A DNA stretch of 64,000 nucleotides from a virus. The notes beneath the pieces were generated by a model. That model was given only the letters and a program-made list of their open reading frames with translations, was not told the origin of the DNA and did not search any database. Made by a program: the position numbers and the translations under genes. Shown piece by piece: positions 791 to 52,485 of this stretch (within the stretch, counting starts at the first letter, position 1; every line of letters begins with the position of its first letter). The stretch lies in IMG/VR virus record IMGVR_UViG_3300042484_002457, positions 124,001 to 188,000 of that record; one strand, given 5' to 3'.

Positions 791-1005
791 AATTATTCAA
801 CCAGGTATATCTAGGAATGAATCCCACAATACAACAACTGATGCAACAGGCAGGCACTGACACCAGCGGCAAATGGATGAGTATAGACAATGCCGAAAAG
901 TTTGCTCAGTTGGTAATTGCAGCGTATAATAAAGAACTTGACGAGTCTTGTCAGGAAAGCAAAAGCAAACTTGGCTACAGCCGAATTGGATTGGAAAACG
1001 TATGA
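787..1005 (+). CDS. hypothetical protein upstream of the clamp loader, 72 aa
   Basis: This gene overlaps the previous stop (ATGA at 787) and its own stop overlaps the gp44 start (ATGA at 1002), so it is embedded in a coupled operon. The sequence contains QQLMQQAG and an AEKFAQLVIAAYNKEL helix but no motif I can name. In T4 the clamp-loader small subunit gp62 is adjacent to gp44. At 72 residues this protein is far too short to be gp62 (about 187 aa), and I see no resemblance. Confidence 0.55.
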   Translation: MKLFNQVYLGMNPTIQQLMQQAGTDTSGKWMSIDNAEKFAQLVIAAYNKELDESCQESKSKLGYSRIGLENV

Positions 1006-1925
1006 AAGAATTATGGGTAGAAAAATATCGTCCCAACACTGTGGATGGTTATGTGTTTGTTGACACTGCGCAACGTGAGCAGGTAACACAGTGGATCCGA
1101 GACGGAAGTATTCCTCACTTGATGTTGAGTGGTAGTGCTGGTACAGGTAAAACAACCCTGGCCAAACTGTTGATCAATGAACTAGGCGTAGACGAATATG
1201 ACGTGATGTACGCCAACGGTTCAAAGGAAGCTCGCAAGGTTGAGTGGGTGGACAAGCTGATCAGCTTTTGTCAAACCATGCCATTTGGTGCATTCAAAGT
1301 GGTGTTGATTGACGAAGCAGACTACATGAATCCCAACTCGGTACAGCCCGCACTACGCAACTTGATGGAAGACTACAGCCAAACTGTGCGGTTTATTCTT
1401 ACTTGTAACTATCCCAACAAGATTATCCCGGCCTTGCACTCACGTTGCCAAGGCTTTCACATCACCAAAACAGATCATACAGAGTTCACTGCTAGAGTGG
1501 CCACTGTGCTGGTGTCAGAAAATGTAGAATTTGATCTGGACACCTTGGATACTTATGTCAAGGCCACTTATCCAGATCTACGCAAGTGTTTGAACTTGGT
1601 ACAACCCAATTCAGTAACTGGAAAACTTGCACCCCCGGGCGAAAGCGATCGTGCTGTTCGAGACTGGAAGCTGGACTGTGTGGATCTGTTCAAACAAGGC
1701 AAGATTCGTGCAGCTCGTACTTTGCTGTGTCAAAGTGCCAGTGCCGAAGAATCAGATGAGATTTTTCGCTGGATGTACGACAACCTTGAACTGTTTGGTA
1801 AAACAGCTGAGCAGCAGGATCAAGCCATTGTGATTATTCGCAACGGCATTGCCAACATTCCCTTGGTCACAGATCAAGAAATCAACCTGAGTGCTACTTT
1901 AATTGAACTTGGCAACATCGCTTGA
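1002..1925 (+). CDS. 44: sliding clamp loader ATPase subunit (gp44/RFC small subunit-like), 307 aa
   Basis: This is the AAA+ ATPase that loads the sliding clamp onto primed DNA for the phage polymerase. The sequence starts MKELWVEKYRPNTVDGY, the classic RFC-family opening. It has a Walker A motif GSAGTGKT at about residues 44-51, a Walker B VVLIDEAD at about 100-107, and the clamp-loader SRC motif (HSRCQGF) near residue 146. The length matches T4 gp44 (319 aa). I chose the ATG at 1002 because the RFC N-terminus begins there and it overlaps the previous stop as ATGA; the longer frame from 948 adds unrelated residues. No gp62 partner is visible nearby. The 3' end overlaps a possible TTG start of the radical-SAM gene. 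Confidence 0.95.
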   Translation: MKELWVEKYRPNTVDGYVFVDTAQREQVTQWIRDGSIPHLMLSGSAGTGKTTLAKLLINELGVDEYDVMYANGSKEARKVEWVDKLISFCQTMPFGAFKVVLIDEADYMNPNSVQPALRNLMEDYSQTVRFILTCNYPNKIIPALHSRCQGFHITKTDHTEFTARVATVLVSENVEFDLDTLDTYVKATYPDLRKCLNLVQPNSVTGKLAPPGESDRAVRDWKLDCVDLFKQGKIRAARTLLCQSASAEESDEIFRWMYDNLELFGKTAEQQDQAIVIIRNGIANIPLVTDQEINLSATLIELGNIA

Positions 1926-3024
1926 GCCTGTGATTGATCCCAACAACAGGATCACATTCCTGTTGGATTGGGAACTCACAATGAAATGCAATCTGGATTG
2001 CAGCTATTGTGAAACTGGTATCTACGGTGGTCATGACAACAGCACACGACACCCGCCCAGGGCTGAGTGCTTGAAAACCATAGACTTTATGTTTGAGTAC
2101 GCTGATGCGTACATGAGCACCAAGCCCCAGGGCATTCGATATGTGATCCTGAATGTTTATGGCGGCGAAGCTTTGCACCATCCACACATTGTGGAAATTT
2201 TATCGGTGCTGCGATCTCGTCATGAGCAATACAAACAGCAATGGCATTTAACTGTTACCACAACTACCAATGCCATAATTGCGCCACACCGCTTGGACAA
2301 AATCATTCCTTTGATTGACGAGTTTACAGTAAGTTATCACACTGACAACACTCCTGAACAAAAACATCAATTTCAAGATAACTTGTTAAAAATCAAATCT
2401 GCGGGTGGTAGACTAAAGTGTGTGGTGCTCATGCATTCTGAGCCGGACAAGTTTGCCGATGCGCAAAACATGATTGAATGGCTAAAGAAAAATGATATCA
2501 AACATCTTCCGAGACAATTGGATCATGCAATTGAGCATGATTTCAACTACAATCAACAACAGGTAATTTGGTTTGAAAAACTCTACAACAAATCCCTGGA
2601 TCATGCTGTGGTACGAGACAACAAAATGGACCTGGCTGACACAGGTCGTGCCTGCTGCGGGGGCAGAAGTTTGTGTGCGGATCAAAATCGTCGAGACCCG
2701 CAAAAGTTTGTGTCAAACAAATTCCCAGGTTGGTACTGTAGTGTAAATCATTTCTTTTTGTATATCAAGCAAGTCAACGGCGAAGTCTACGTGAACAAAG
2801 ATTGCAAAATGAATTTTGATGGCACCGTGGGACCAATTGGGCATTTATCAAACACTCAGCCCATGATTGATCAGGCTCAAGATCATGATCGTCCTGTGAT
2901 ACAGTGTGCCAAACAACGCTGCTATTGTGGACTTTGTGCACCCAAGGCAGCAGATCTAGATACATATAACCACATAATGAAAAAATATGAGATACCTAAT
3001 TCTAACCTACGTGACCAGGCCTAA
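1903..3024 (+). CDS. radical SAM protein with SPASM/twitch-like Cys-rich C-terminus, 373 aa
   Basis: The motif CNLDCSYC (CxxxCxxC) binds the 4Fe-4S cluster used to cleave S-adenosylmethionine. The preceding strand LLDWELTMK is the usual first beta strand, so the true start must lie upstream of the ATG at 1981; a TTG at 1903 or a GTG at 1930 are the candidates. The C-terminal part carries a second set of cysteines (CCGGRSLC, WYCSV, CYCGLC), as in SPASM or twitch proteins that hold auxiliary clusters. The substrate is unknown; such enzymes often modify peptides or nucleotides. It lies directly after gp44 and overlaps the start of the next small gene. Confidence 0.8.
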   Translation: MNLATSLEPVIDPNNRITFLLDWELTMKCNLDCSYCETGIYGGHDNSTRHPPRAECLKTIDFMFEYADAYMSTKPQGIRYVILNVYGGEALHHPHIVEILSVLRSRHEQYKQQWHLTVTTTTNAIIAPHRLDKIIPLIDEFTVSYHTDNTPEQKHQFQDNLLKIKSAGGRLKCVVLMHSEPDKFADAQNMIEWLKKNDIKHLPRQLDHAIEHDFNYNQQQVIWFEKLYNKSLDHAVVRDNKMDLADTGRACCGGRSLCADQNRRDPQKFVSNKFPGWYCSVNHFFLYIKQVNGEVYVNKDCKMNFDGTVGPIGHLSNTQPMIDQAQDHDRPVIQCAKQRCYCGLCAPKAADLDTYNHIMKKYEIPNSNLRDQA

Positions 3025-3292
3025 TGGCAAAATTGACGAGCAAATGCAACTGGCTCGAAATATCAAACGCAGAGATTTGCAAACAGGCAATGTTATTCTT
3101 GACTTTCGTGAGCTCAAGGTAGTAAAATCTAGCATGAGTGGGCAACAAGTACCAAAAGATTTTGATCGAATTGTTGCTTACTATTATCAACACTATGCCA
3201 ACACAATAGATCGGCTACTGAAAGAAAATGGATACGAAATTGTCAAATCTGAAGAACCCCAAGCACAACCCGCAGAAACTGATCCTAGTTGA
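2987..3292 (+). CDS. conserved phage hypothetical protein, 101 aa
   Basis: The gene starts inside the end of the radical-SAM gene. The protein MRYLILTYVTRPNGKIDEQM.. has an alternating beta/alpha pattern and a VPKDFDRIVAYYYQHY stretch resembling small uncharacterised proteins of T4-like phages. There is no known catalytic motif. Its 3' end overlaps the convergent endonuclease gene by 8 bases, which suggests the endonuclease inserted directly behind it. Confidence 0.6.
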   Translation: MRYLILTYVTRPNGKIDEQMQLARNIKRRDLQTGNVILDFRELKVVKSSMSGQQVPKDFDRIVAYYYQHYANTIDRLLKENGYEIVKSEEPQAQPAETDPS

Positions 3293-4154
3293 TTAGTTTC
3301 CAACCTTTGTAACTTTTATACAGTCCTTTAACTAGTTTGTATGCTTCGGAGCCACTGCTAAAATTATATGCGGTGGCAAGATCTCCAGTTGTTCCGCAAA
3401 ATGTACCGTGGTTAGGATGAACAAAGTTATATTTGATAGCACGACTTTTTGTAGCATGGCTAATTTTCTTTCTTGATTCTGAGGCCCAAGCATGAGTTTT
3501 AAAACTTTCAGGTCTTTCTAATCTCCTTTGTTTTTGAGACTCTGATAATTTTTGTCGCATATCGTCGGTCCATATACGCTTACTATTAGATTCTCTTATT
3601 TTTTGTTTTTGGTAATCTGATATTGGATGAGACACATTTCCTTTAAGTTTTGCAGAAATTTTTTGTCTTGACTCTATAGTATGTGTTTTTCCATACATTG
3701 GATTATTTGTGCCTGAATTTCTATTAGATATATCAGACTTGAATTGTTTGGCTCGTTCGTCTCCAAATAATTCTTCATACGTCTTGTTTTTTCTGTTTTT
3801 GGATAATTGTTCTTTAGTTTCATTAGACAATGTGTGATGTTCTCCCCCTTTGGAGATATTAGTAAGGATACCACCGTCTTTTCTTCTACCGTATAAATCT
3901 ATTAGATGTGTTTCTCGGTCAATTGCTTCTTCTTTAGTTAACGATTCAAATACAACCTTGACTTCGGGAACTAAGTTTGCAGATAAGATGTTGCTAATTT
4001 CGTTAACTTTTTCTAAATTTACTATTTTAGTTCTAGTCTCCCGTATATGTTCTTTATATCGGAGTTCTGCTGTTCTTGATGTAATCCCTACATAAAAAAC
4101 GGTTTGAGTTAGTGGATTCAAAATCTCATAAACATAAAAAATTTTACTTGACAT
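3285..4154 (-). CDS. GIY-YIG homing endonuclease with NUMOD-like modules, 289 aa
   Basis: The N-terminus shows the GIY-YIG signature: FYVYEILNP, then VFYVGIT with Arg residues downstream, and a glutamate-containing ETHLIDLYGRR that supplies the metal-binding Glu. The middle carries repeated NUMOD3-like motifs (NPMYGKTH, ISAKLKGN, RQKLSESQKQRR). The C-terminus has a NUMOD1-like helix-turn-helix (TGDLATAYNFSSGSEAYKLVKG). The product is a free-standing nuclease that cuts phage genomes lacking it and spreads itself. It points against the flanking genes. A GATAAATA late-promoter-like box lies upstream on the same strand at 4201-4194. It is notably AT-rich compared with its neighbours. Confidence 0.9.
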   Translation of the reverse strand: MSSKIFYVYEILNPLTQTVFYVGITSRTAELRYKEHIRETRTKIVNLEKVNEISNILSANLVPEVKVVFESLTKEEAIDRETHLIDLYGRRKDGGILTNISKGGEHHTLSNETKEQLSKNRKNKTYEELFGDERAKQFKSDISNRNSGTNNPMYGKTHTIESRQKISAKLKGNVSHPISDYQKQKIRESNSKRIWTDDMRQKLSESQKQRRLERPESFKTHAWASESRKKISHATKSRAIKYNFVHPNHGTFCGTTGDLATAYNFSSGSEAYKLVKGLYKSYKGWKLIN

Positions 4155-5515: not shown

Positions 5516-5657
5516 AGTATTTTCTCCTTTAGTCCTCTCGGACCTGTTATTTACGGGCCTGCGCAACATGATAACACAACATTGATTTAACAACACCTGA
5601 TCACTAAATACTGACCTGGCGGCGTATTCCACAAAAACCCTGCTCTTGGTCAATCGA

Positions 5658-5664
5658 CTAAATA
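5658..5664 (+). promoter_or_regulatory. late-promoter-like CTAAATA box
   Basis: CTAAATA ends 5 bases before the ATG at 5670. The core TAAATA matches the T4 late -10 element, and the start would fall at the initiation codon. A second CTAAATA lies at 5604-5610. Confidence 0.45.
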
Positions 5665-5669
5665 TACGC

Positions 5670-6278
5670 ATGGACCGAGAACTCTTTAAAGACCACACTG
5701 ATTACTGGCAAGTTGCTGACAACATCCGCGACATCTACATGAGCGACGGCAGTTTGACCACGCTGTTGGATTTTGAGCGTGTGCTGGACGAAGTTGATAT
5801 CTACGCATTTAAAAACTGGGAAATTGGCGAGCTTGTGGCCGGTCCTGAAATTGGCCGATATCGTGTGAGCTGCACATTTATGTGGCCACTCAAACTCATG
5901 CCCGATCCACGTGGCGGACGCAGACTGTTGAACTACGACTGCGAAATAAGTTATCAACGCAAAGAAATAAAGATTCCTGTAAAGATCACAGACCCCAGTG
6001 ATTATCGCCCTGGCACCAAAAAAGCCAAGTTAATGACACAGGAAGTGTGGCTGGTGGAAATTGTCATGCCCAAGGCCTTGATGAATGATATTCGCACTGG
6101 ATCAATTGAAATGGAAGATGAGGATATTGATCTTGAAGAACTGGATCAGGCCTATGAGCAAGATCTAGATCAGGAAGCCAATCAGAGTGATGAGGCTGCC
6201 GATGATGCACAGGCCAGCCTGGACACACCCAACCCTGGAGGCGCACCAGCTGCTGCGCCAGGACAACCACAGATTTAA
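5670..6278 (+). CDS. conserved phage protein, 202 aa, acidic/Pro-rich tail
   Basis: I recognise this only as an uncharacterised family of T4-like aquatic phages. It has a structured N-terminal part (MDRELFKDHTDYW.. and a GPEIGRYRVSCTFMWP strand region) followed by an acidic, Gln/Ala/Pro-rich disordered tail from about residue 150. The start at 5670 fits the family N-terminus and the CTAAATA box just upstream; an in-frame GTG at 5646 adds eight residues. It is the first gene of a block leading into the QGVAEG polyprotein, so a virion or assembly role is plausible but unproven. Confidence 0.65.
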   Translation: MDRELFKDHTDYWQVADNIRDIYMSDGSLTTLLDFERVLDEVDIYAFKNWEIGELVAGPEIGRYRVSCTFMWPLKLMPDPRGGRRLLNYDCEISYQRKEIKIPVKITDPSDYRPGTKKAKLMTQEVWLVEIVMPKALMNDIRTGSIEMEDEDIDLEELDQAYEQDLDQEANQSDEAADDAQASLDTPNPGGAPAAAPGQPQI

Positions 6279-6280
6279 TC

Positions 6281-6847
6281 ATGAATACTTTTAATCCTTT
6301 TGACCCTGCCCGCCCCTTGCTGCTGGAAGGCCTACAGTACAAAGATCTTGACGGCATCATGAAACCCACAGTGCACGTGGATGAATTTTCTGCCAAACTG
6401 GGCGAAGATGCTGATGTGATTGTACTCAGCTTTTTTGTGCGCGACAAGCAAGCAGCACGTGATCTAATGGGCTGGTTTGAAAAAGGCTATGATTTTGTAC
6501 TAGATGCTGATGTCAGCCCCGGTGAAATCAAGCCTGGCCGGTATCTGGTGTATGTGGAAATTCGTCGCCGCAGCGCAGTACCTCGCCATGTTCAAACCTT
6601 GTTGGATGATCTTTCTACCCTGACAGAATTTGAGCCTGAAGACTGGCAGTTTGTGTATGAGGATGGTGACTTTGGCTGGGACCAGGATGAATTTATCAAA
6701 CGCATTCCACTAACACCCGACGCATATAGAGCCAGAAATGAATCTGATCTAAATGAAATGAGAGCTGCTGCCGGCTTGAAGCCAGTGCAGATTCATACTC
6801 CGCGGAGTGATGTCAAGGCATTAATGGCCGCAGCAGGGATATTGTAA
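6281..6847 (+). CDS. conserved phage protein, 188 aa
   Basis: This is an uncharacterised soluble protein. It begins two bases after the previous stop, and its own stop shares a base with the start of the polyprotein (TAATG at 6845-6849), so the three genes form one unit. The N-terminus MNTFNPFDPARPLLLEGL ends in LLLEG, resembling an x-x-E/G prohead-protease site. The middle has VIVLSFFVRDKQAARDLMGWFEKGYDFVLDADVSPGE, broken here by description: a strand, a helix around AARDLMGWFEKG, then DADVSPGE. No enzyme motif is seen. Confidence 0.6.
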   Translation: MNTFNPFDPARPLLLEGLQYKDLDGIMKPTVHVDEFSAKLGEDADVIVLSFFVRDKQAARDLMGWFEKGYDFVLDADVSPGEIKPGRYLVYVEIRRRSAVPRHVQTLLDDLSTLTEFEPEDWQFVYEDGDFGWDQDEFIKRIPLTPDAYRARNESDLNEMRAAAGLKPVQIHTPRSDVKALMAAAGIL

Positions 6848-9800
6848 TGTTACTAAACCACTTGTTTGAAAACCGCCCCGGGGGCACACTAAACGAATTT
6901 GCACCTGCAGGTGGTGGTGGCAATCGCATGGGTGGTGGTCGTATTGGCGGTGGCGGAGATGACGATGGTGCCGGTGATGATCCCTACAAGTATCCACAGC
7001 CAGACCACTATAGCCGTAGCATAGACTTCTTTGGACGGTTTGAAGCAGATCATTTTGACGACGAAGAGTTTGACAAAGCCACAGGCGAGTTCCGGGGCTA
7101 CTGGGACGATCAAGAGGGCCGTGATCAGATTGCCTATTTCAAGTTTGACAATCCCCGACGCACCGGAGACGACGACCCAGGCATGGGCTGGTACTACGAG
7201 CCACAAAATGAAAGCATGGCAGAAGCACAAACTGAACCTGAGCAGCAACAGATTGATGCTAACCGTCAAGCAGCACTGCGTCGTGAGCGTGAACCTGGTG
7301 GCAGCGAAAAGATTGATGCCCAGCTGGCACAACAAAATGCACAGCGCCAAGAATATGAACGCACTGGCAACTTCTGGCTCAAGCGCAAAGACACACAAGA
7401 ACACATCAGTGATGAGTTTGTGGGCAAAGCTGCCGCAGTGGCTGCTGCACAAGACTTGTTGAAACAACAACCTGATTTGCGTGGCAACATTGTGATCACA
7501 GCATACGGCCCAGGCGAAACTCAGGGTGTGGCGGAAGGCTTCAAGAACATGTACGCAGAGTTCTCTGGATACGGAAACTACATGCAAGGTCGTGCTGTCA
7601 ATGTATTCAACAAAGCTGGCTTGGAGATTGTCAGCAAAGATTACACAGAAGATGATGACATACAAACCTATGTTGTAAAGGGTGACCGCCAAGCTATCGA
7701 AAAAGCCGGCGAGTTCTTGGAACGCAATCCCGAACAGTTTGGCGGATATCACTTTGTCAAGCAAGGTGTGGCGGAAGGCGGATATCCTGAAGTTGACCAT
7801 ATGCCAGGTCCCACTATAAAGAGAACACAGACTGGTTGCAAAAGATGCCACGGCAAGGGCTATGTTTATAAAACACCAGACGGTGAAGTTCATCCTATGA
7901 ATCGTCCAGATGCCAAGAAATACAAATGTGGCAAATGTGATGGTATTGGGTTTGTCAAAGTAGCAGAGCAAGGTGTGGCGGAAGGCTCACAGGATAATGG
8001 AATTAGTTTTCGTGTACAAAAGGGTAAAAATAAATTTGTCACTACCATGACAGTTAATAACGAGCAGGTGGGTGTATACCAATATGATGCTACTACAGGT
8101 CGTAGCATAGCCGAGGTTTATCCAGAATTCAAGGGCAAAGGATTTGGTAAATTATTGGTTTTACATGCTATCTATACCGCGGCCAAATTAGGATTAGATT
8201 TCCAAGAAGATGAATCAAGAACTGCTGAGTATGATAATGTGTTAGACAGTTTGAGTAGCAACAGTTATATTGTAGATGATGATGGATATTGGTACGTTAC
8301 TGGTGAGGGCGAACAATACCTACAACAATCATTAAAACAAGGTGTGGCGGAAGGCAAGAGAATGAAAACTGCCAGCGGCATGTATCGTGACCAGCATACT
8401 GGAGTTGCCTACAGAGGAAAAACAGGACAAGATGGAAACGATAGTTATATGACTCCTGATTACTTGATTCAAAAGTATCAAGAGCGTTTAGCGCAAATTG
8501 CATCAGGTCCATACAAGCGTCCTAAAGAAGTAGCACAACTAAAATCTCGTATTGCTAAACTACAAGGTCAGCAAGGTGTGGCGGAAGGTGCTCCTATTGT
8601 AGTGGCACAGGCTCCTATTCATATTCGCAATCCTAAGAAACAACAAAGTCGTCAAGACAAGCCACTTACAGCATACCAACAAGGTGTTGCAGCACAGGGC
8701 AAGCCATACAAGAATCCGCATCCGTTTGATCCTAAAGCAGGCGCAGATGTGAACTACGACCATAATCAATATCGTGCTGGATATAAGAAGCAAGGTGTGG
8801 CGGAAGGCTCCTTGGAAGAAATAGACCGTAGAGGATTCTTAAAAGGCATGGGTGCAGCGGCAGTAGCAGGCACTGGACTATCACCTATGCCTGCGAAAGC
8901 CTGGTTTTTCTTTATAATACCATTACCTAACACTAACCCAGATGCAGCGGCAAATGCATGCATGCCTCCGACTGTCCAGGTCGGACAACAGGTAAATTTT
9001 CAAAACGAATTACAGGTCATACAAAAAATACACGGAGTCTCTAATAGATGCCAAAATCCAAATATGCCTGTGGCTGTCACTATTGGCAAACCTGAACCCG
9101 TTCAAGCACCAGTAGTAAAAGAACCTCCTAATCAAAAAACACCTCCGAATTACGCATCAAGAATTATAGCTAGAATAAGACCAAACATTCATTATTCTGG
9201 CGACACCTCAGGTAATCCACGTGCAGAAATTGAAGTTCGAGTATCTTCTGATGGTACAATTACCGGAGTAAAATTAGAAAAATCAAGCGGTAACTCAGAG
9301 TGGGACCAGGCTGTAATTGATGCTGTTAAAAAAACCCAAACAATGCCTTTAGATTCTACTGGTAATGTTCCATCTATTATGATAATGGGTTTTAGACCAA
9401 TGGATAATCAATCTTTACAAAGAGAAAGCGTTGACCAAGGTGTGGCGGAAGGCGGTGAGAAAGATCGTCAATGGTCCAACAAAGACATGGAGAGGCTGCG
9501 TGTTGCTACCAGAGACTTTGATGATATAATGGCATCTGATGGACCTGACCAAACCAAGCACGATTTAATTAAGAAGCGAATTCAAACAAAACCAATGGCA
9601 GGTCCTAAAGGCGTATTGCCGGAGGAAGGTGTGGCGGAAGGCGGATACAGCGGTATCGACGATACTGACACCGTGGGCTTTAGCGTCAACAGTGAACGGG
9701 CATACAATGCAGTAATGGCTCGCTTTGGCGACCAGATTGATCATGACGAAACTTCGGGTATTCTGTATGTGCCTGCACGTTTGTGGCCCAAAGTAGAAAT

Positions 9801-10014
9801 GGTAGCTTTTGATGCCGACGGCGAAGGTGCTACACAAACTGATGGCTTGGACGAAGGCGAGAAAGTTGGCAACATGGATGCTGATGCATTTGATGCTGCC
9901 ATGGCCCGCCTTAAAAAGCTAGCAGGCGCAGGACCAATGAAAACAGTTTATGACCCCAACAAACGTGTGTATCGTAATGTGCCCACAGCAGTTCAACCAG
10001 GTACCAAAAAATGA
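6847..10014 (+). CDS. modular QGVAEG-linked polyprotein (candidate capsid cargo), 1055 aa
   Basis: Eight copies of the hexapeptide QGVAEG (one is EGVAEG), at residues 226, 306, 375, 498, 576, 649, 864 and 927, separate nine unrelated segments. Segment 1 is Gly/acidic with a Gln-rich helix. Segment 3 has two CxxCxGxG zinc knuckles (CKRCHGKG, CGKCDGIG) as in DnaJ. Segment 4 looks like a GNAT acetyltransferase core (VYPEFKGKGFGKLLVLHAIY). Segment 7 starts with a twin-arginine signal (DRRGFLKGMGAAAVAG) and continues into a TonB/TolA-like C-terminal domain (AEIEVRVSSDGTITGVKLEK). The others are unrecognised. V-A-E-G resembles T4 prohead-protease sites, so the protein may be cut into separate cargo proteins. 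A 360-aa antisense frame over this gene is a shadow. Confidence 0.85.
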   Translation: MLLNHLFENRPGGTLNEFAPAGGGGNRMGGGRIGGGGDDDGAGDDPYKYPQPDHYSRSIDFFGRFEADHFDDEEFDKATGEFRGYWDDQEGRDQIAYFKFDNPRRTGDDDPGMGWYYEPQNESMAEAQTEPEQQQIDANRQAALRREREPGGSEKIDAQLAQQNAQRQEYERTGNFWLKRKDTQEHISDEFVGKAAAVAAAQDLLKQQPDLRGNIVITAYGPGETQGVAEGFKNMYAEFSGYGNYMQGRAVNVFNKAGLEIVSKDYTEDDDIQTYVVKGDRQAIEKAGEFLERNPEQFGGYHFVKQGVAEGGYPEVDHMPGPTIKRTQTGCKRCHGKGYVYKTPDGEVHPMNRPDAKKYKCGKCDGIGFVKVAEQGVAEGSQDNGISFRVQKGKNKFVTTMTVNNEQVGVYQYDATTGRSIAEVYPEFKGKGFGKLLVLHAIYTAAKLGLDFQEDESRTAEYDNVLDSLSSNSYIVDDDGYWYVTGEGEQYLQQSLKQGVAEGKRMKTASGMYRDQHTGVAYRGKTGQDGNDSYMTPDYLIQKYQERLAQIASGPYKRPKEVAQLKSRIAKLQGQQGVAEGAPIVVAQAPIHIRNPKKQQSRQDKPLTAYQQGVAAQGKPYKNPHPFDPKAGADVNYDHNQYRAGYKKQGVAEGSLEEIDRRGFLKGMGAAAVAGTGLSPMPAKAWFFFIIPLPNTNPDAAANACMPPTVQVGQQVNFQNELQVIQKIHGVSNRCQNPNMPVAVTIGKPEPVQAPVVKEPPNQKTPPNYASRIIARIRPNIHYSGDTSGNPRAEIEVRVSSDGTITGVKLEKSSGNSEWDQAVIDAVKKTQTMPLDSTGNVPSIMIMGFRPMDNQSLQRESVDQGVAEGGEKDRQWSNKDMERLRVATRDFDDIMASDGPDQTKHDLIKKRIQTKPMAGPKGVLPEEGVAEGGYSGIDDTDTVGFSVNSERAYNAVMARFGDQIDHDETSGILYVPARLWPKVEMVAFDADGEGATQTDGLDEGEKVGNMDADAFDAAMARLKKLAGAGPMKTVYDPNKRVYRNVPTAVQPGTKK
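7522..7539 (+). repeat. QGVAEG linker repeat, copy 1
   Basis: CAGGGTGTGGCGGAAGGC, in frame; it differs from the consensus CAAGGTGTGGCGGAAGGC at one base (CAG for CAA). It separates polyprotein segments 1 and 2. Confidence 0.9.
7762..7779 (+). repeat. QGVAEG linker repeat, copy 2
   Basis: Exact consensus CAAGGTGTGGCGGAAGGC. It precedes the segment with two DnaJ-like zinc knuckles. Confidence 0.9.
7969..7986 (+). repeat. QGVAEG linker repeat, copy 3
   Basis: Exact consensus 18-mer. It separates the zinc-knuckle segment from the GNAT-like segment. Confidence 0.9.
8338..8355 (+). repeat. QGVAEG linker repeat, copy 4
   Basis: Exact consensus 18-mer following the GNAT-like segment. Confidence 0.9.
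8572..8589 (+). repeat. QGVAEG linker repeat, copy 5
   Basis: Differs from the consensus only in the last base (GGT for GGC), a silent change. Confidence 0.9.
8791..8808 (+). repeat. QGVAEG linker repeat, copy 6
   Basis: Exact consensus 18-mer, directly before the twin-arginine signal of the TonB-like segment. A degenerate relative (QGVAAQG) lies in the preceding segment near 8680. Confidence 0.9.
9436..9453 (+). repeat. QGVAEG linker repeat, copy 7
   Basis: Exact consensus 18-mer. It ends the AT-richer TonB-like segment. Confidence 0.9.
9625..9642 (+). repeat. EGVAEG linker repeat, copy 8
   Basis: GAAGGTGTGGCGGAAGGC, giving E in place of the first Q; the other 15 bases are exact. It precedes the last segment. 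Confidence 0.9.
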
Positions 10015-10166
10015 GAAGCACTGCTAACGGTCGTGTTATAAGAACACTGCCTGGCGCTACAAAACCTGAAGCTCCTGTACAACCTCAGCAGCCCCAGGCC
10101 CGGATCAAACGAGCTATGCCAATAGCAGCGCTACTACAAAGTCATAGATTCAGACTAAACCCATGA
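10011..10166 (+). CDS. short basic Pro-rich protein, 51 aa
   Basis: This short frame overlaps the polyprotein stop as ATGA at 10011 and the next start as ATGA at 10163, which is strong contextual evidence that it is translated. It begins MRSTANGRVIRTLPGAT and is rich in Pro, Gln, Arg and Ala with a basic end. It has no known motif. It may be a small DNA-binding or capsid-internal peptide, but that is a guess. Confidence 0.6.
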   Translation: MRSTANGRVIRTLPGATKPEAPVQPQQPQARIKRAMPIAALLQSHRFRLNP

Positions 10167-11692: not shown

Positions 11693-12661
11693 ATGAACCT
11701 CAAAAAATTATTAGCAACATTTGCTGTTGCACTTCCGATGCTAGCATTAGCATTTACACCGCCCAAAGTGGTTAACGTCACTGTGGGATATGCACCCGGA
11801 TCTGGTAACGAAACCTCATTTAGGGGAGTTGCAGCCATTGTAGAAAAAGCCAACCCAAACATCACATTTGTAGTTACAAATCGCCCAGGCGCTGACGAAG
11901 TAGTAGCACTAAACCATTTTATGAAACTGCCTGGTGATGGACACAATCTGTATATTAGTAGTCAGCAAGGGGTTTTTACCACTATCGAACAGTGGTATCC
12001 GGATCAGATCAAATTCAACCCGCTGGACATGGAATTGGTCACAACTATTGCTAAATCTCCATTGGCTGTGATTGCCAATATTGATTCTCCTACTAACACT
12101 CCGCAAGAATTACTAGCACGTCTCAAGAACACTAACAAGCCTATTACATTTGGTCTAGGTGCTGGCGCTCACAAGCTGGTGTTTGAATACTTGATGGATC
12201 GAGGCCAAGGCAACCACAATCAAGTCAAGTCTGTGATGTATCGTGGTCCTGCACAAGCCGCACAGGACGTGGCTGGCAATCAGGTAGAGTTTGGAATCAT
12301 GCCTACAGCAGTGGCCTATGGTCTTTATAAAGCAGGAAAAATCAAGTATATTGCATTAGCATCAGAATTTAAACTGACTCAACTGCCTAACGTGCCACTG
12401 TGGAAAGATTCTGGCATGCCCGGTCTGAACATTTATGGTGCTTGGATGATTGCACTACCACCGGGAACTCCTAAGGAAATAGTAAAGTATTATCAGGACT
12501 TGTTTGTGCCAGCCATTAGATCAGCCGACGCCAAACAGTTTTTTGATTCAAACTTGATGTTTCCGGTACCTGCTGAGCAGAGTCCTGAAGGAGCTCGAAA
12601 GTTCATAATGAGTATTCGAGAAACCTGGATCCCATATGTGAAGAAAATGAAGTTAGATTAA
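11693..12661 (+). CDS. TctC/Bug-family periplasmic solute-binding protein, 322 aa
   Basis: The protein has a typical Sec signal peptide (MNLKKLLATFAVALPMLALA) and the Bug/TctC layout: a VGYAPGSGNE binding loop near the N-terminus, ITFGLGAGAH in the middle, and ALPPGTPKEIVKYYQDLF near the end. Its length is the family norm. These proteins capture carboxylates in the periplasm for tripartite transporters and are greatly expanded in Betaproteobacteria, so it is an unusual phage gene and probably host-derived. The ATG has an AAGGAA binding site six bases upstream. Its stop overlaps the next start (TAATG). Confidence 0.85.
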   Translation: MNLKKLLATFAVALPMLALAFTPPKVVNVTVGYAPGSGNETSFRGVAAIVEKANPNITFVVTNRPGADEVVALNHFMKLPGDGHNLYISSQQGVFTTIEQWYPDQIKFNPLDMELVTTIAKSPLAVIANIDSPTNTPQELLARLKNTNKPITFGLGAGAHKLVFEYLMDRGQGNHNQVKSVMYRGPAQAAQDVAGNQVEFGIMPTAVAYGLYKAGKIKYIALASEFKLTQLPNVPLWKDSGMPGLNIYGAWMIALPPGTPKEIVKYYQDLFVPAIRSADAKQFFDSNLMFPVPAEQSPEGARKFIMSIRETWIPYVKKMKLD

Positions 12662-17475: not shown

Positions 17476-17943
17476 ATGTGGATTTTGCACTTTCTTCCTG
17501 ACGCTGTAATACTGTGGTTCACCAACCTGTTGCTGTTTGCGGGTGTTGCACTCACAGTGGCTGGATTTTTTATTCATCGAATTCCGTCCCCGTTGATATA
17601 TCAGTATCAATTGCCATTCAAAATAGTAGGCGTTGTTCTGCTGGTACTGGGCGTGTATTTTCGTGGCGGCTATGCTATAGAAATAACCTGGCGCGAGCGT
17701 GTGGCAGAAGTAGAAGCCCAGTTGCGAGTTGCTGAACAACAATCAGCTCAAGAAAACACACGTATAGAAACTCGAGTAGTTAAAAAGACCGAATACATCA
17801 CACGTCGCGGATCAGATATTGTTCAGTATGTTGACCGTGAAATCGTCCGGTATGACACCAAGTTTGCTCCTGGCGGACAGTGTGAAATACCACGAGAATT
17901 TATCAAGGCCCACAATCAGGCCGCTGAGGCACCACCCAAATGA
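17476..17943 (+). CDS. inner-membrane spanin-like (Rz-like) protein, 155 aa
   Basis: Two hydrophobic segments (about residues 8-32 and 45-65) are followed by a charged coiled-coil region and a periplasmic tail containing EIVRYDTKFAPGGQCEIP. I associate this tail pattern with phage spanin-like membrane proteins. With the lipoprotein at 19120 it could form the complex that fuses inner and outer membranes at lysis. The start follows a CTAAATA box. The stop overlaps the next start (ATGA at 17940). The alternative reading is an unrelated membrane protein. Confidence 0.6.
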   Translation: MWILHFLPDAVILWFTNLLLFAGVALTVAGFFIHRIPSPLIYQYQLPFKIVGVVLLVLGVYFRGGYAIEITWRERVAEVEAQLRVAEQQSAQENTRIETRVVKKTEYITRRGSDIVQYVDREIVRYDTKFAPGGQCEIPREFIKAHNQAAEAPPK

Positions 17944-19118
17944 AATTCAAAGACTTTCGAACAGAAGAAAAAGTACGCTTGGATCCCAAGTGTTGGACAG
18001 GTAAAAAAATTGGCAACCCCAAGACCAAGGTCAAGGGTGGAGTTAGAGTCAACAACTGTGTGCCCGCTGAATCTGTTGAAGAGGCTGTAAATCCTGCACA
18101 ACAGGCTGCTATTGCTATTGCTAAAAAGAAAAAGAAACAAGGTCTGAAGGAAGGTACAGACAATCCCTACGGATATCGCAAAGGGCAAACTGTAAAACTT
18201 GGCAATGGTCAACAAGGTCGTGTCATTGATATTTTTGATGACAGCATTGAAGTTTTACTAGTTGGCGGCCGAACAGTCACAGTAGACTTCCGTGATGCAC
18301 GGGTAATCGACGAGCAAGGTGTGGCGGAAGATGCTGTGGCAGATTTCTTGGCTCGTGGTGGAGAAATACAAAAAGGCAAGCTACACAAACCACGCAAGGG
18401 TGAAACTTGGCAAGGATCATCACACATTGGTGCAGCAGGCGGAAAAGGTACCAAAGGCACAGTGTCGGGTCGAGCTGCTAACACCAATCCCAAAGGTGGC
18501 AAGCCAGTGGTCAGTGCTGAAGGTTTCAACCCTGAATACAACGACGAAGCAGGCATGGCCGACAACAATCTTGAAACCTTGGAACGTGCTGTGGCAGGTA
18601 TTGACGACCTAATTCAAACCGGTGATAACTTGCCAGAGTGGTGTCAAGAAAAGATCGCAGTGGCCAAGTCAATGTTGGTGGCTGTATGGGACTACATGGA
18701 AAGTGAAGAAGACTCTGAGGAAGTAGATCCTGAAGTGGACGAAATGTTTGAAGCCATGCAAGACCTGGTGTCAGAAATGGCCCAGAAAAATCGTGTGAGT
18801 GAAGATCTAGTGTGGGAACAGTTTGAAGCCATGCCGGATAACGTACTGTACGAAACAGCAGCTTGGCGTCGCAAAGAAGGCAAAAGCGCCAAAGGTGGAC
18901 TCAACGCCAAGGGTGTGGCCAGCTATCGCAGAGAGAATCCTGGTTCAAAACTACAAACAGCAGTCACAACCAAGCCCAGCAAACTCAAGCCAGGATCCAA
19001 AGCAGCCAAGCGCCGTAAATCATTCTGTGCAAGAATGGGCGGAGTCAAAGGACCAATGAAAAAGCCCAATGGCAAGCCCACACGCAAAGCTCTAGCCCTA
19101 CGTAAATGGAACTGCTAA
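17940..19118 (+). CDS. modular cargo-like protein with QGVAE linker, 392 aa
   Basis: This is a mosaic of short modules that I associate with aquatic phage proteins: CWTGKKIGNP..GGVRVNNCVP near the N-terminus, an SH3-like KGQTVKLGNGQQGRV segment, QGVAED at residues 126-131, an acidic helical module (GIDDLIQTGDNLPEW, then VWDYMESEE), and a C-terminal CARMGGVKGPM..ALALRKWNC module. The N-terminus MKFKDFRTEEK is capsid-targeting-like. The QGVAE codons match the 18-bp repeat of the 1055-residue polyprotein. It sits inside the lysis block between the two spanin candidates. Its function is unknown; delivery as capsid cargo is inferred. Confidence 0.75.
   Translation: MKFKDFRTEEKVRLDPKCWTGKKIGNPKTKVKGGVRVNNCVPAESVEEAVNPAQQAAIAIAKKKKKQGLKEGTDNPYGYRKGQTVKLGNGQQGRVIDIFDDSIEVLLVGGRTVTVDFRDARVIDEQGVAEDAVADFLARGGEIQKGKLHKPRKGETWQGSSHIGAAGGKGTKGTVSGRAANTNPKGGKPVVSAEGFNPEYNDEAGMADNNLETLERAVAGIDDLIQTGDNLPEWCQEKIAVAKSMLVAVWDYMESEEDSEEVDPEVDEMFEAMQDLVSEMAQKNRVSEDLVWEQFEAMPDNVLYETAAWRRKEGKSAKGGLNAKGVASYRRENPGSKLQTAVTTKPSKLKPGSKAAKRRKSFCARMGGVKGPMKKPNGKPTRKALALRKWNC
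18315..18332 (+). repeat. QGVAE(D) linker repeat, ninth copy in the window
   Basis: CAAGGTGTGGCGGAAGAT; the first 16 bases match the consensus used in the polyprotein 8.7 kb away, in frame, giving QGVAED. Confidence 0.85.
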
Positions 19119-44019: not shown

Positions 44020-44655
44020 TTAATTTTTAGAAGCAGCTCTTCTCTGGTGTGCTAGTCTCATACGTTCTTTGGTCTCCGCAGAATGCGTTTTTCCTAGCAT
44101 GCCCGACACTTTAGGTTTTTTACTGTATGTCTCTCTAAGAGACTCTTTAATTTTCTTTTTTGTTTCTTCCGATCGCATCGATTTGCTACGCGAATTTCCA
44201 ATTAGTGATTTACTAATTTTTTCCTTAGTTTCATCACTGGTTATTTGCAAGGCTCGTTTATTGCGAATTTTTTGTTTGATTTTCTCAGATAGCATTTTGC
44301 CTGTTTGAGCAAGACGAATACTATTCTTGTGTTCTTCACTAAGTGATTCGCACTTGAATCGATTTTTTCCGTGAAAACAAGATCGATTCAATAGTAAATT
44401 GCTACCCCAGTTTTCAAATATCAATTGCTGTTCAAAATCGTATGCATCATTGCCAGTATAAAACTCTGCAATAATATACCATACATAATCATCAAAGTTG
44501 TTAGAAACAATAAGGGATGATGTTTTATAATACATAAAATCTACATTAGATGGTAATGTGTTGGCTTCTCTGTAGCCGATATAAAATTCTTTTGATTCTT
44601 TATGAATGCACATATAAACATACGGCATTGCCTTCGTTGATGGATAAGTATTCAT
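44020..44655 (-). CDS. GIY-YIG homing endonuclease with NUMOD3 repeats, 211 aa
   Basis: The N-terminus has the GIY-YIG core in the form YVYMCIHKESKEFYIGYR, with the metal-binding Glu likely in DFEQQLIFENW. The C-terminal half is Lys/Arg/Ser-rich with NUMOD3-like units (GNSRSKSMRSEETKKKI; GMLGKTHSAETKERMR). I chose the ATG at 44655 because AAAAGGAG lies at the proper distance; the longer start at 44676 overlaps the leader. It sits just upstream of the polymerase gene and opposes it, a frequent place for homing genes in T4-like phages. Confidence 0.88.
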   Translation of the reverse strand: MNTYPSTKAMPYVYMCIHKESKEFYIGYREANTLPSNVDFMYYKTSSLIVSNNFDDYVWYIIAEFYTGNDAYDFEQQLIFENWGSNLLLNRSCFHGKNRFKCESLSEEHKNSIRLAQTGKMLSEKIKQKIRNKRALQITSDETKEKISKSLIGNSRSKSMRSEETKKKIKESLRETYSKKPKVSGMLGKTHSAETKERMRLAHQRRAASKN

Positions 44656-44710
44656 GCTGATTGCTCCTTTTAGCATTAGAGCCGGTGGATGCGTCCAACA
44701 TCGCGACTGG
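44656..44710 (-). promoter_or_regulatory. conserved structured leader of the GIY-YIG endonuclease
   Basis: On the minus strand it reads TCGCGAT, hairpin TGGA-CGCA-TCCA, CTCTAATGCT, AAAAGGAGCA. The same elements precede the HNH gene at 25525, although the two proteins are unrelated. Confidence 0.75.
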
Positions 44711-51725: not shown

Positions 51726-51744
51726 GATTGATATGGAATATATG

Positions 51745-51751
51745 CTAAATA
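51745..51751 (+). promoter_or_regulatory. late-promoter-like CTAAATA box
   Basis: CTAAATA lies 17 bases before the ATG (51769) of a GIY-YIG endonuclease. Confidence 0.4.
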
Positions 51752-51768
51752 TCCGTAGAGGAAATGCT

Positions 51769-52485
51769 ATGAAATATTATGTGTATATACTATCTGACCC
51801 AAGAAACAACGTTCCTTTTTATATAGGTAAGGGCAAAGGCAAAAGATCTATGTCCCACCTTAAGGAAACAAAAGAAACTACAATCAACATTAGAAAATAT
51901 AATAAGATACAATCAATTTTCAGTGAAGGTCTGACACCCTTGATTTCTTACTATGCCACTGACTTGTCTGAGCAAGATGCTTATGAATTAGAAGCTTCTC
52001 TTATTAAACAATACGGACGCAAAGATTACGATGCTAACGGAATCTTACTTAACATTTGTGAAAACAATCGCCCTCCTGGGCACGATAATTTTTTAACCAA
52101 CAACCCTGGATTGAGGATGAAAGGGAAAACGTATGAGGAGATCTACGGTGAAGAAAAAGCCAAACAGTTAAAACTTCAAAGAACATTATCTTCTTCTGTA
52201 AGAGAAGTTACACAAGAGACTAAAGACAGAATGAAAGAATCTGCCCTTGTCAAGATGGCTAATGGATACAAAATGCCGTCAAGAAAAGGAAAGAGAGATT
52301 CTGAAGAGACACGTTTGAAAAAATCTTTGGCACACAGAGGCAAAATTAAGCCGTCGATGAGCGAAGAGACAAAGAAAAAAATTTCAGACACAAAGCGAAA
52401 AAATAGTAAAAAATTTTTAAACATTCAATATTTAAGGAAGTACCATGGCCAAGCCTACATTCAAACCCAACCAGCGCCTGACTGA
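51769..52485 (+). CDS. GIY-YIG homing endonuclease, 238 aa
   Basis: The GIY-YIG core is clear: YYVYILSDPRNNVPFYIGKG, followed by KGKR and the Glu-containing YELEASLIKQYGRKD. Downstream there are NUMOD3-like Lys-rich repeats (NNPGLRMKGKTYEEIYG; AHRGKIKPSMSEETKKKI). I chose the ATG at 51769 because a GAGGAAA site precedes it and the fold begins there. Its 3' end overlaps the next gene, including that gene's binding site, which suggests insertion between two coupled genes. It is AT-rich relative to neighbours. Confidence 0.9.
   Translation: MKYYVYILSDPRNNVPFYIGKGKGKRSMSHLKETKETTINIRKYNKIQSIFSEGLTPLISYYATDLSEQDAYELEASLIKQYGRKDYDANGILLNICENNRPPGHDNFLTNNPGLRMKGKTYEEIYGEEKAKQLKLQRTLSSSVREVTQETKDRMKESALVKMANGYKMPSRKGKRDSEETRLKKSLAHRGKIKPSMSEETKKKISDTKRKNSKKFLNIQYLRKYHGQAYIQTQPAPD

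Follow-up and report, generated by a model that had tools for sequence, protein, structure and literature searches.

Within a single long ORF of a giant, freshwater-type phage, a twin-arginine (Tat) signal peptide lies directly downstream of one of eight copies of a short repeated linker, and we favor the interpretation, at a probability of roughly 0.7, that this ORF encodes a capsid-packaged cargo polyprotein that is cut by the prohead protease and ejected, some of its pieces then being exported by the host Tat system. The window analyzed is a stretch of 64,000 nt, corresponding to positions 124,001–188,000 of IMG/VR record IMGVR_UViG_3300042484_002457, and all coordinates are those of the window unless a locus is named.

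A Tat signal and a TolA-like domain inside a long ORF

The features of the polyprotein ORF and its surroundings are listed in Table 1. After the linker QGVAEG at 8791–8808 come SLEEI and DRRGFLKGMGAAAVAG, which lead to a PAKA|W site, then to a proline-rich spacer and finally to a C-terminal domain of the TolA/TonB type; at the sequence level SLEEI leads into DRRGFLKGMGAAAVAGTGLSPMPAKA|W, continuing as WFFF, the Pro-rich stretch and the C-terminal domain, and the next linker, at 9436, closes the module. A preliminary description of this DNA had reported the signal, the PAKA site, the spacer and a TonB/TolA-like domain after QGVAEG, and all of these are present in ORF 6847–10014. The module has the features of a Tat substrate (an RRxFLK motif, a neutral h-region and an A-x-A site), but the signal sits at about residue 660 of the ORF rather than at the protein N-terminus, and would become N-terminal only if the linker is cut.

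Table 1. Coordinates of the polyprotein ORF, its linkers and the associated features in the window
Feature	Coordinates	Strand	Remarks
Homologue of PA5oct gp189 virion structural protein	5646..6278	+	marked ESI-MS/MS
Homologue of PA5oct gp188 virion structural protein	6281..6847	+	
Cargo polyprotein ORF (putative)	6847..10014	+	1055 aa, 8 linkers, 9 segments
Linker copy 1	7522..7539	+	QGVAEG
Linker copy 2	7762..7779	+	
Linker copy 3	7969..7986	+	
Linker copy 4	8338..8355	+	
Linker copy 5	8572..8589	+	
Linker copy 6	8791..8808	+	QGVAEG; predicted cut VAE|G between 8805 and 8806
Tat signal peptide GSLEEIDRRGFLKGMGAAAVAGTGLSPMPAKA	8806..8901	+	above NCBIfam TAT_signal_seq cut-off
Second possible cut site LEE|I	8812..8820	+	directly before Tat motif; cut between 8820 and 8821
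Twin arginines (RR) of Tat signal	8827-8832	+	
Predicted signal-peptidase cut A|W	after 8901	+	
Pro-rich spacer	9058..9141	+	read from sequence; low pLDDT
TolA-III/TonB-like C-terminal domain	9142..9408	+	
Linker copy 7	9436..9453	+	end of Tat module
Linker copy 8	9625..9642	+	EGVAEG
Second linker ORF	17940-19118		holds linker copy 9
Linker copy 9	18315..18332	+	QGVAED, in ORF 17940-19118

Signal prediction and structure prediction had been proposed as checks on this module. The NCBIfam model TAT_signal_seq scores 23.3 against a cut-off of 16.7, and the Pfam TAT_signal match (1.7e-4) falls slightly short of the Pfam cut-off. The C-terminal part matches Pfam TonB_2 (1.9e-18), TonB_C (4e-6) and TolA (5e-5), and NCBIfam tonB_Cterm (38.3, cut-off 27.1); the full-length TolA model tolA_full reaches 47.1 bits, below its cut-off of 59.45, and the module has no TolA-I or TolA-II region. 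AlphaFold2 predicts residues 118–206 of the module confidently (pLDDT 82–92) as helix-strand-strand-helix-strand, with the signal and spacer at low confidence, and the best Foldseek matches are to TolA domain III (6s3w, 1.3e-5; 3qdp, 2.6e-4), TonB domains ranking after these. The TonB/TolA assignment thus holds for family and fold, but its emphasis on TonB does not, as the predicted fold is nearer to that of TolA III, with which it agrees (PMC7391070, PMC4339652). Unlike TolA, the module lacks a TolA-type inner-membrane helix and the long TolA-II helix, and carries a Tat signal instead.

Across the ORF, Pfam finds the TolA-like domain strongly and a DnaJ-type zinc finger and a GNAT domain weakly, so that several unrelated domains occur in one polypeptide, as in polyvalent proteins; no Pfam match to an embedded metallopeptidase or assemblin-like domain is seen in the ORF. 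The weak CxxCxGxG zinc finger and GNAT-like matches, both below Pfam cut-offs, lie in the modules at 7780–7968 and 7987–8337. A tblastn search of 50,697 phage genomes with the module and the polyprotein gives 0 matches, a PHROGs search places the polyprotein in no family, and bacterial genomes yield no confirmed relative of the TolA module.

The linker as peptide and as DNA

The 18-base linker occurs nine times in the window (≤3 mismatches), eight times in ORF 6847–10014 and once in ORF 17940–19118, and since shuffled sequences predict only 0.02 copies, nine in 64 kb cannot be attributed to chance. An exact 17-base core is found in at least 120 IMG/VR stretches, and all 343 of 343 copies with ≤3 mismatches are in the QGVAEG frame; none of the papers searched describes the motif. 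Between copies 5 and 6, at 8680–8700, there is also a degenerate linker, QGVAAQG, which lacks the Glu and uses the codons GTT GCA, neither GTG nor GCG.

Among 441 in-frame copies with ≤4 mismatches, the linker Glu has 24 synonymous and 5 nonsynonymous changes, compared with a neutral ratio of 1:8 (p=8e-19), and is under strong purifying selection. The Val is also constrained (45:29 synonymous to nonsynonymous, p=1.5e-6), and no protein-level constraint is detected at Gln, Gly or Ala in the same copies; what is kept is therefore a Glu at P1 and a hydrophobic residue at P3. These are the positions shared by the T4 cleavage motifs ITE and LTE (PMC5694885), and they agree as well with the capsid propeptides of this phage lineage at their putative cut points, LLE|G and LAE|N.

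The linker is nonetheless conserved as DNA to a degree that needs an explanation beyond a protease site. Its codons are nearly uniform, with GCG making up 92% of the Ala codons (7% elsewhere) and GTG about 90% of the Val codons (20% elsewhere), and the neighbors of a given module vary, eight copies of one module having seven upstream and seven downstream partners. Because of this uniformity and these many neighbors, recombination probably also joins cassettes at the repeat, and cassette shuffling fits the DNA conservation. The same observations would favor a linker that is chiefly a recombination or insertion element shuffling in-frame cassettes, the peptide being a tolerated scar and the Tat segment an inactive passenger, but we consider this unlikely, given the single reading frame, the protein-level selection on Glu and Val, and the fact, documented below, that a Glu boundary is common to N-terminal leaders without the repeat and that Tat signals follow hydrophobic-x-Glu without it too. 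The DNA and protease-site functions are compatible, and it is only the version in which the peptide is nothing but a scar that is rejected.

Interchangeable junctions and buried Tat signals in other phages

We identified 37 distinct ORFs in which, close to the start, there begins a module found elsewhere after a linker. The residue preceding the common module is Glu in 16 of the 37 (background 3.8%, p=1e-13), and the residues upstream of it are unrelated, with 21 of 175 identical. Homology starts immediately after the Glu, as in MRVTEIINE|DWQK (leader) and QGVAE|DWQK (linker); MRVTEIINE|DWQKTNKKDKTDGMS matches QGVAE|DWQKVNKSDKTDGMS, and MRSSEFVFE|KWSEKYKSSINCS matches QGVAE|EWSQKYKSSINCS. For several of the remaining junctions, the point of alignment is a second site inside the linker (QGVAE|EQLDE|KWSQ with MKAS-EFVSE|KWSR). 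Because modules follow either one with the boundary at Glu, linker and leader look interchangeable as cut sites.

The leaders at these junctions are similar to the starts of T4 IPII and IPIII, MKTYQEFIAE|A. A leader of about ten residues ending in hydrophobic-x-Glu (such as MKTLRDYINLIE, MRATEFIIE and MRAIEFLTE) is present in 50% of 88 linker ORFs, compared with 18% of 954 other ORFs, and the N-terminus of the polyprotein ORF itself, MLLNHLFEN, is a looser match. When a loose form of this test was applied to PA5oct it did not separate proteins detected by mass spectrometry (6 of 44) from those undetected (12 of 67). Three further window ORFs, at 10163, 10575 and 32476, have T4-like targeting N-termini (MRNFINLIEA, MRAQEFVEAD and MRAQEFVTEL) and no linkers; these are possible additional internal head proteins.

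Searching for the linker followed by RRxFLK recovers 20 stretches and an independent, linker-free pattern, DRRGFLKGxG, recovers 36, their union being 38 distinct Tat signals, whose distance from the ORF start ranges from 9 to 994 residues. In 37 of the 38, that of the window included, [LIVMT]-x-Glu precedes the twin arginines with the Glu 3–5 residues before RR, where 4.7 would be expected at random positions and the maximum in 2000 trials was 13; the sole exception (L181) has no linker. Since the Tat cassettes are homologous and share common ancestry, the 37 of 38 measures the steadiness of the arrangement and not a number of independent origins. The passengers comprise about 24 unrelated families (25 counting L181), including GH19, SLT, LysM, M48 and TolA/TonB domains, most with periplasm-type functions, and Pfam TAT_signal is found in 36 of 37 related modules. 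In L016 the arrangement is at the very start of the ORF, MRATEFVTE|MDRRGFLRG, with a GH19 domain after it.

The argument that an internal Tat signal is itself evidence for linker cleavage, made originally from the one module and on the premise that signal peptides act solely at an N-terminus, is strengthened by the unrelated passengers, the selection on Glu and the module boundaries at Glu. Homologues without the twin arginines had been named as the finding that would tell against it; a TolA-like homologue in another phage (L174, 44% identity) keeps them. Two ways of accounting for the buried signals without cleavage can be considered. The ORFs could encode uncut multidomain proteins in which the linkers are flexible joints and the signal is either read internally by Tat or vestigial. 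Some polyvalent phage proteins, such as the N4 virion RNA polymerase, are indeed packaged uncut (PMC5512222), and internal Tat recognition would count for this option too; with RR as far as 994 residues into the ORF, unrelated modules on both sides, and a conserved Glu and interchangeable junctions that are unexpected for a joint, we regard it as very improbable. Alternatively, GGAAGG in the linker could act as a ribosome site from which the Tat module is made separately, and in the window a TTG does lie four bases 3′ of GGAAGG. In most of the 38 Tat modules, however, the stretch separating linker from RR contains no ATG, GTG or TTG, its Leu codon usually being TTA, and other modules start without start codons; internal initiation is the least credible of the alternatives and we reject it.

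Signal-like stretches follow 20 of 45 linkers in a set enriched for Tat loci; in an unbiased set without that enrichment, hydrophobic signal-like stretches lie right after 6 of 30, which is not significant (p=0.10). A second, Sec-like signal family is found directly 3′ of linkers in L083, L088, L120, L114, L121 and L137, for example QGVAEG-WKDLAVGGAMALGALGAGHAQA. None of the papers searched describes Tat signals on ejected phage proteins.

Virion context and a proposed route to the periplasm

The source phage is a distant relative of the PA5oct/RaK2-type jumbo phages. The ATG of the polyprotein gene overlaps the stop codon of the virion-protein gene just upstream, and the polyprotein gene comes after the gp189 and gp188 homologues, with DnaJ and ClpA located further on in the order seen in PA5oct. 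A further, indirect link to the virion is provided by an 829-residue protein of the source phage (L147:982-3471, that is, G000 982-3471), a homologue of PA5oct gp278 (marked ESI-MS/MS), whose C-terminal part contains three linker copies, QGMAEG, QGVAEV and QGVAEA, and modules 72–84% identical to polyprotein modules of other phages. This virion structural protein homologue has acquired linker modules in its C-terminal part.

PA5oct has a T4-type cluster of portal, core, S77 protease gp331 (Pfam S77, 5e-24) and Gp23 capsid gp329. Of 16 linker-carrying contigs, 6 encode homologues of gp331 (54–58% identity), next to which lie core and Gp23-type capsid genes, and the capsid precursors of these relatives read MTQALLE|GRWGETKDALLE|GLSG...HLAE|NATAG, with the cut points assigned by us. 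Pfam and PHROG searches of the source record for the S77 protease and Gp23 gave no match, with only one of four control runs positive; the record starts inside terL, and the head cluster of the relatives lies beyond its extent. We preferred the S77-matching gp331 to PA5oct gp212, which is annotated as a head maturation protease but matches families of ATP-dependent proteases as well; the gp212 homologue in the source phage (L151:3753-4346) is ClpP-like in appearance. The S77 prohead protease is the likely cutter of the linkers.

From these elements we infer the following route. A T4-like capsid-targeting sequence at its N-terminus would draw the polyprotein into the prohead, where the phage's presumed T4-type S77 protease would cut after the Glu of every linker (VAE|G), and the freed pieces would be retained in the head and ejected along with the DNA. 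In the cytoplasm of the new host the freed piece would have an N-terminal Tat signal, GSLEEIDRRGFLKG or IDRRGFLKG, and being N-terminal after the cut it would allow host Tat to export the folded TolA-III-like domain to the periplasm. Burial of the signal within the chain would also block export in the producing cell before packaging. The preliminary description is supported in its proposal of linker cleavage, and missed the S77 prohead protease and the route through capsid packaging and ejection.

TolB binds to domain III of TolA, which phage g3p and colicins use as their target (PMC7391070, PMC4339652), so a free periplasmic copy could compete for these contacts. By this analogy, which makes competition a guess, the exported domain would most likely compete in Tol-Pal or TonB-type contacts, and so change the envelope or exclude later phages and bacteriocins; the interference with uptake or superinfection suggested earlier is a plausible guess of the same kind. 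Cutting by another protease or for the benefit of the producing cell, with the Tat piece acting late in lysis or release rather than after ejection, would suit the cell-wall hydrolases among the passengers (GH19, SLT and LysM), but the T4-like leaders and the virion-protein link point to packaging and make late action improbable.

The proposed packaged and ejected cargo resembles several known systems. T4 IPI–IPIII and Alt have a capsid-targeting sequence that is cut by gp21, an S77 protease (PMC9958956, PMC5694885), and the short leader ending in hydrophobic-x-Glu, the S77 protease and Gp23-type capsid in the lineage and the proposed ejection are similar here; in T4, however, one gene gives one cargo protein, whereas here many modules, some of them bearing Tat signals, are chained by repeated putative cut sites and shuffled between phages. 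Polyvalent proteins of phages and plasmids, for which injection is predicted and processing has been proposed (Iyer et al. 2017, PMC5512222), likewise carry many diverse effector-like domains in a single long polypeptide, but their processing is attributed to built-in metallopeptidase or assemblin-like domains, as opposed to short, uniform linkers that are DNA-identical repeats with a predicted cut in trans; the text of Iyer et al. does not mention signal peptides (PMC5512222). The ejection proteins of SPN3US and phiKZ, processed by an S80 prohead protease, share the Glu at P1, multiple propeptide sites and, on the reading proposed here, ejection (PMC5694885, PMC10052503), although those cuts remove propeptides and no array of separate cargo modules like the present one has been described.

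More broadly, the data may reflect a cargo system that is widespread among jumbo-type phages and shuffled by recombination, in which the 18-base repeat is both recombination junction and prohead-protease site and delivery to the periplasm takes two steps, capsid ejection and host Tat; we consider the case for this generalization to be evenly balanced. If it is correct, the boundaries of a large repertoire of phage proteins that enter bacteria as infection begins can be recognized by one short peptide, mature cargo can be read directly from metagenomes with buried Tat signals flagging the envelope-acting cargo, and phage proteins have a route to the periplasm from within the new host.

Several other features of the phage were noted. 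The C-terminal part of the second linker ORF, 17940–19118, matches phrog_4689 and other PHROGs of unknown function, and it also has hits in hundreds of cyanophage and pelagiphage records. The phage encodes DnaJ and ClpA, a putative ClpX, a putative ClpS and two putative ClpP-like proteins (window 20798 and 21645; L149:16258 and 18493; L151:853 and 3753), and PA5oct has a similar DnaJ/Clp set. ORFs 3285–4154, 44020–44676 and 51733–52485, dispersed among other genes, resemble GIY-YIG homing endonucleases by eye. Finally, ORFs 11693–12661, L154:17454-18335 and L150:15934-17022 resemble by eye a TctC/Bug-type periplasmic receptor, a beta-proteobacterial porin and a PstS-like protein, a likeness hinting at a Burkholderiales host.
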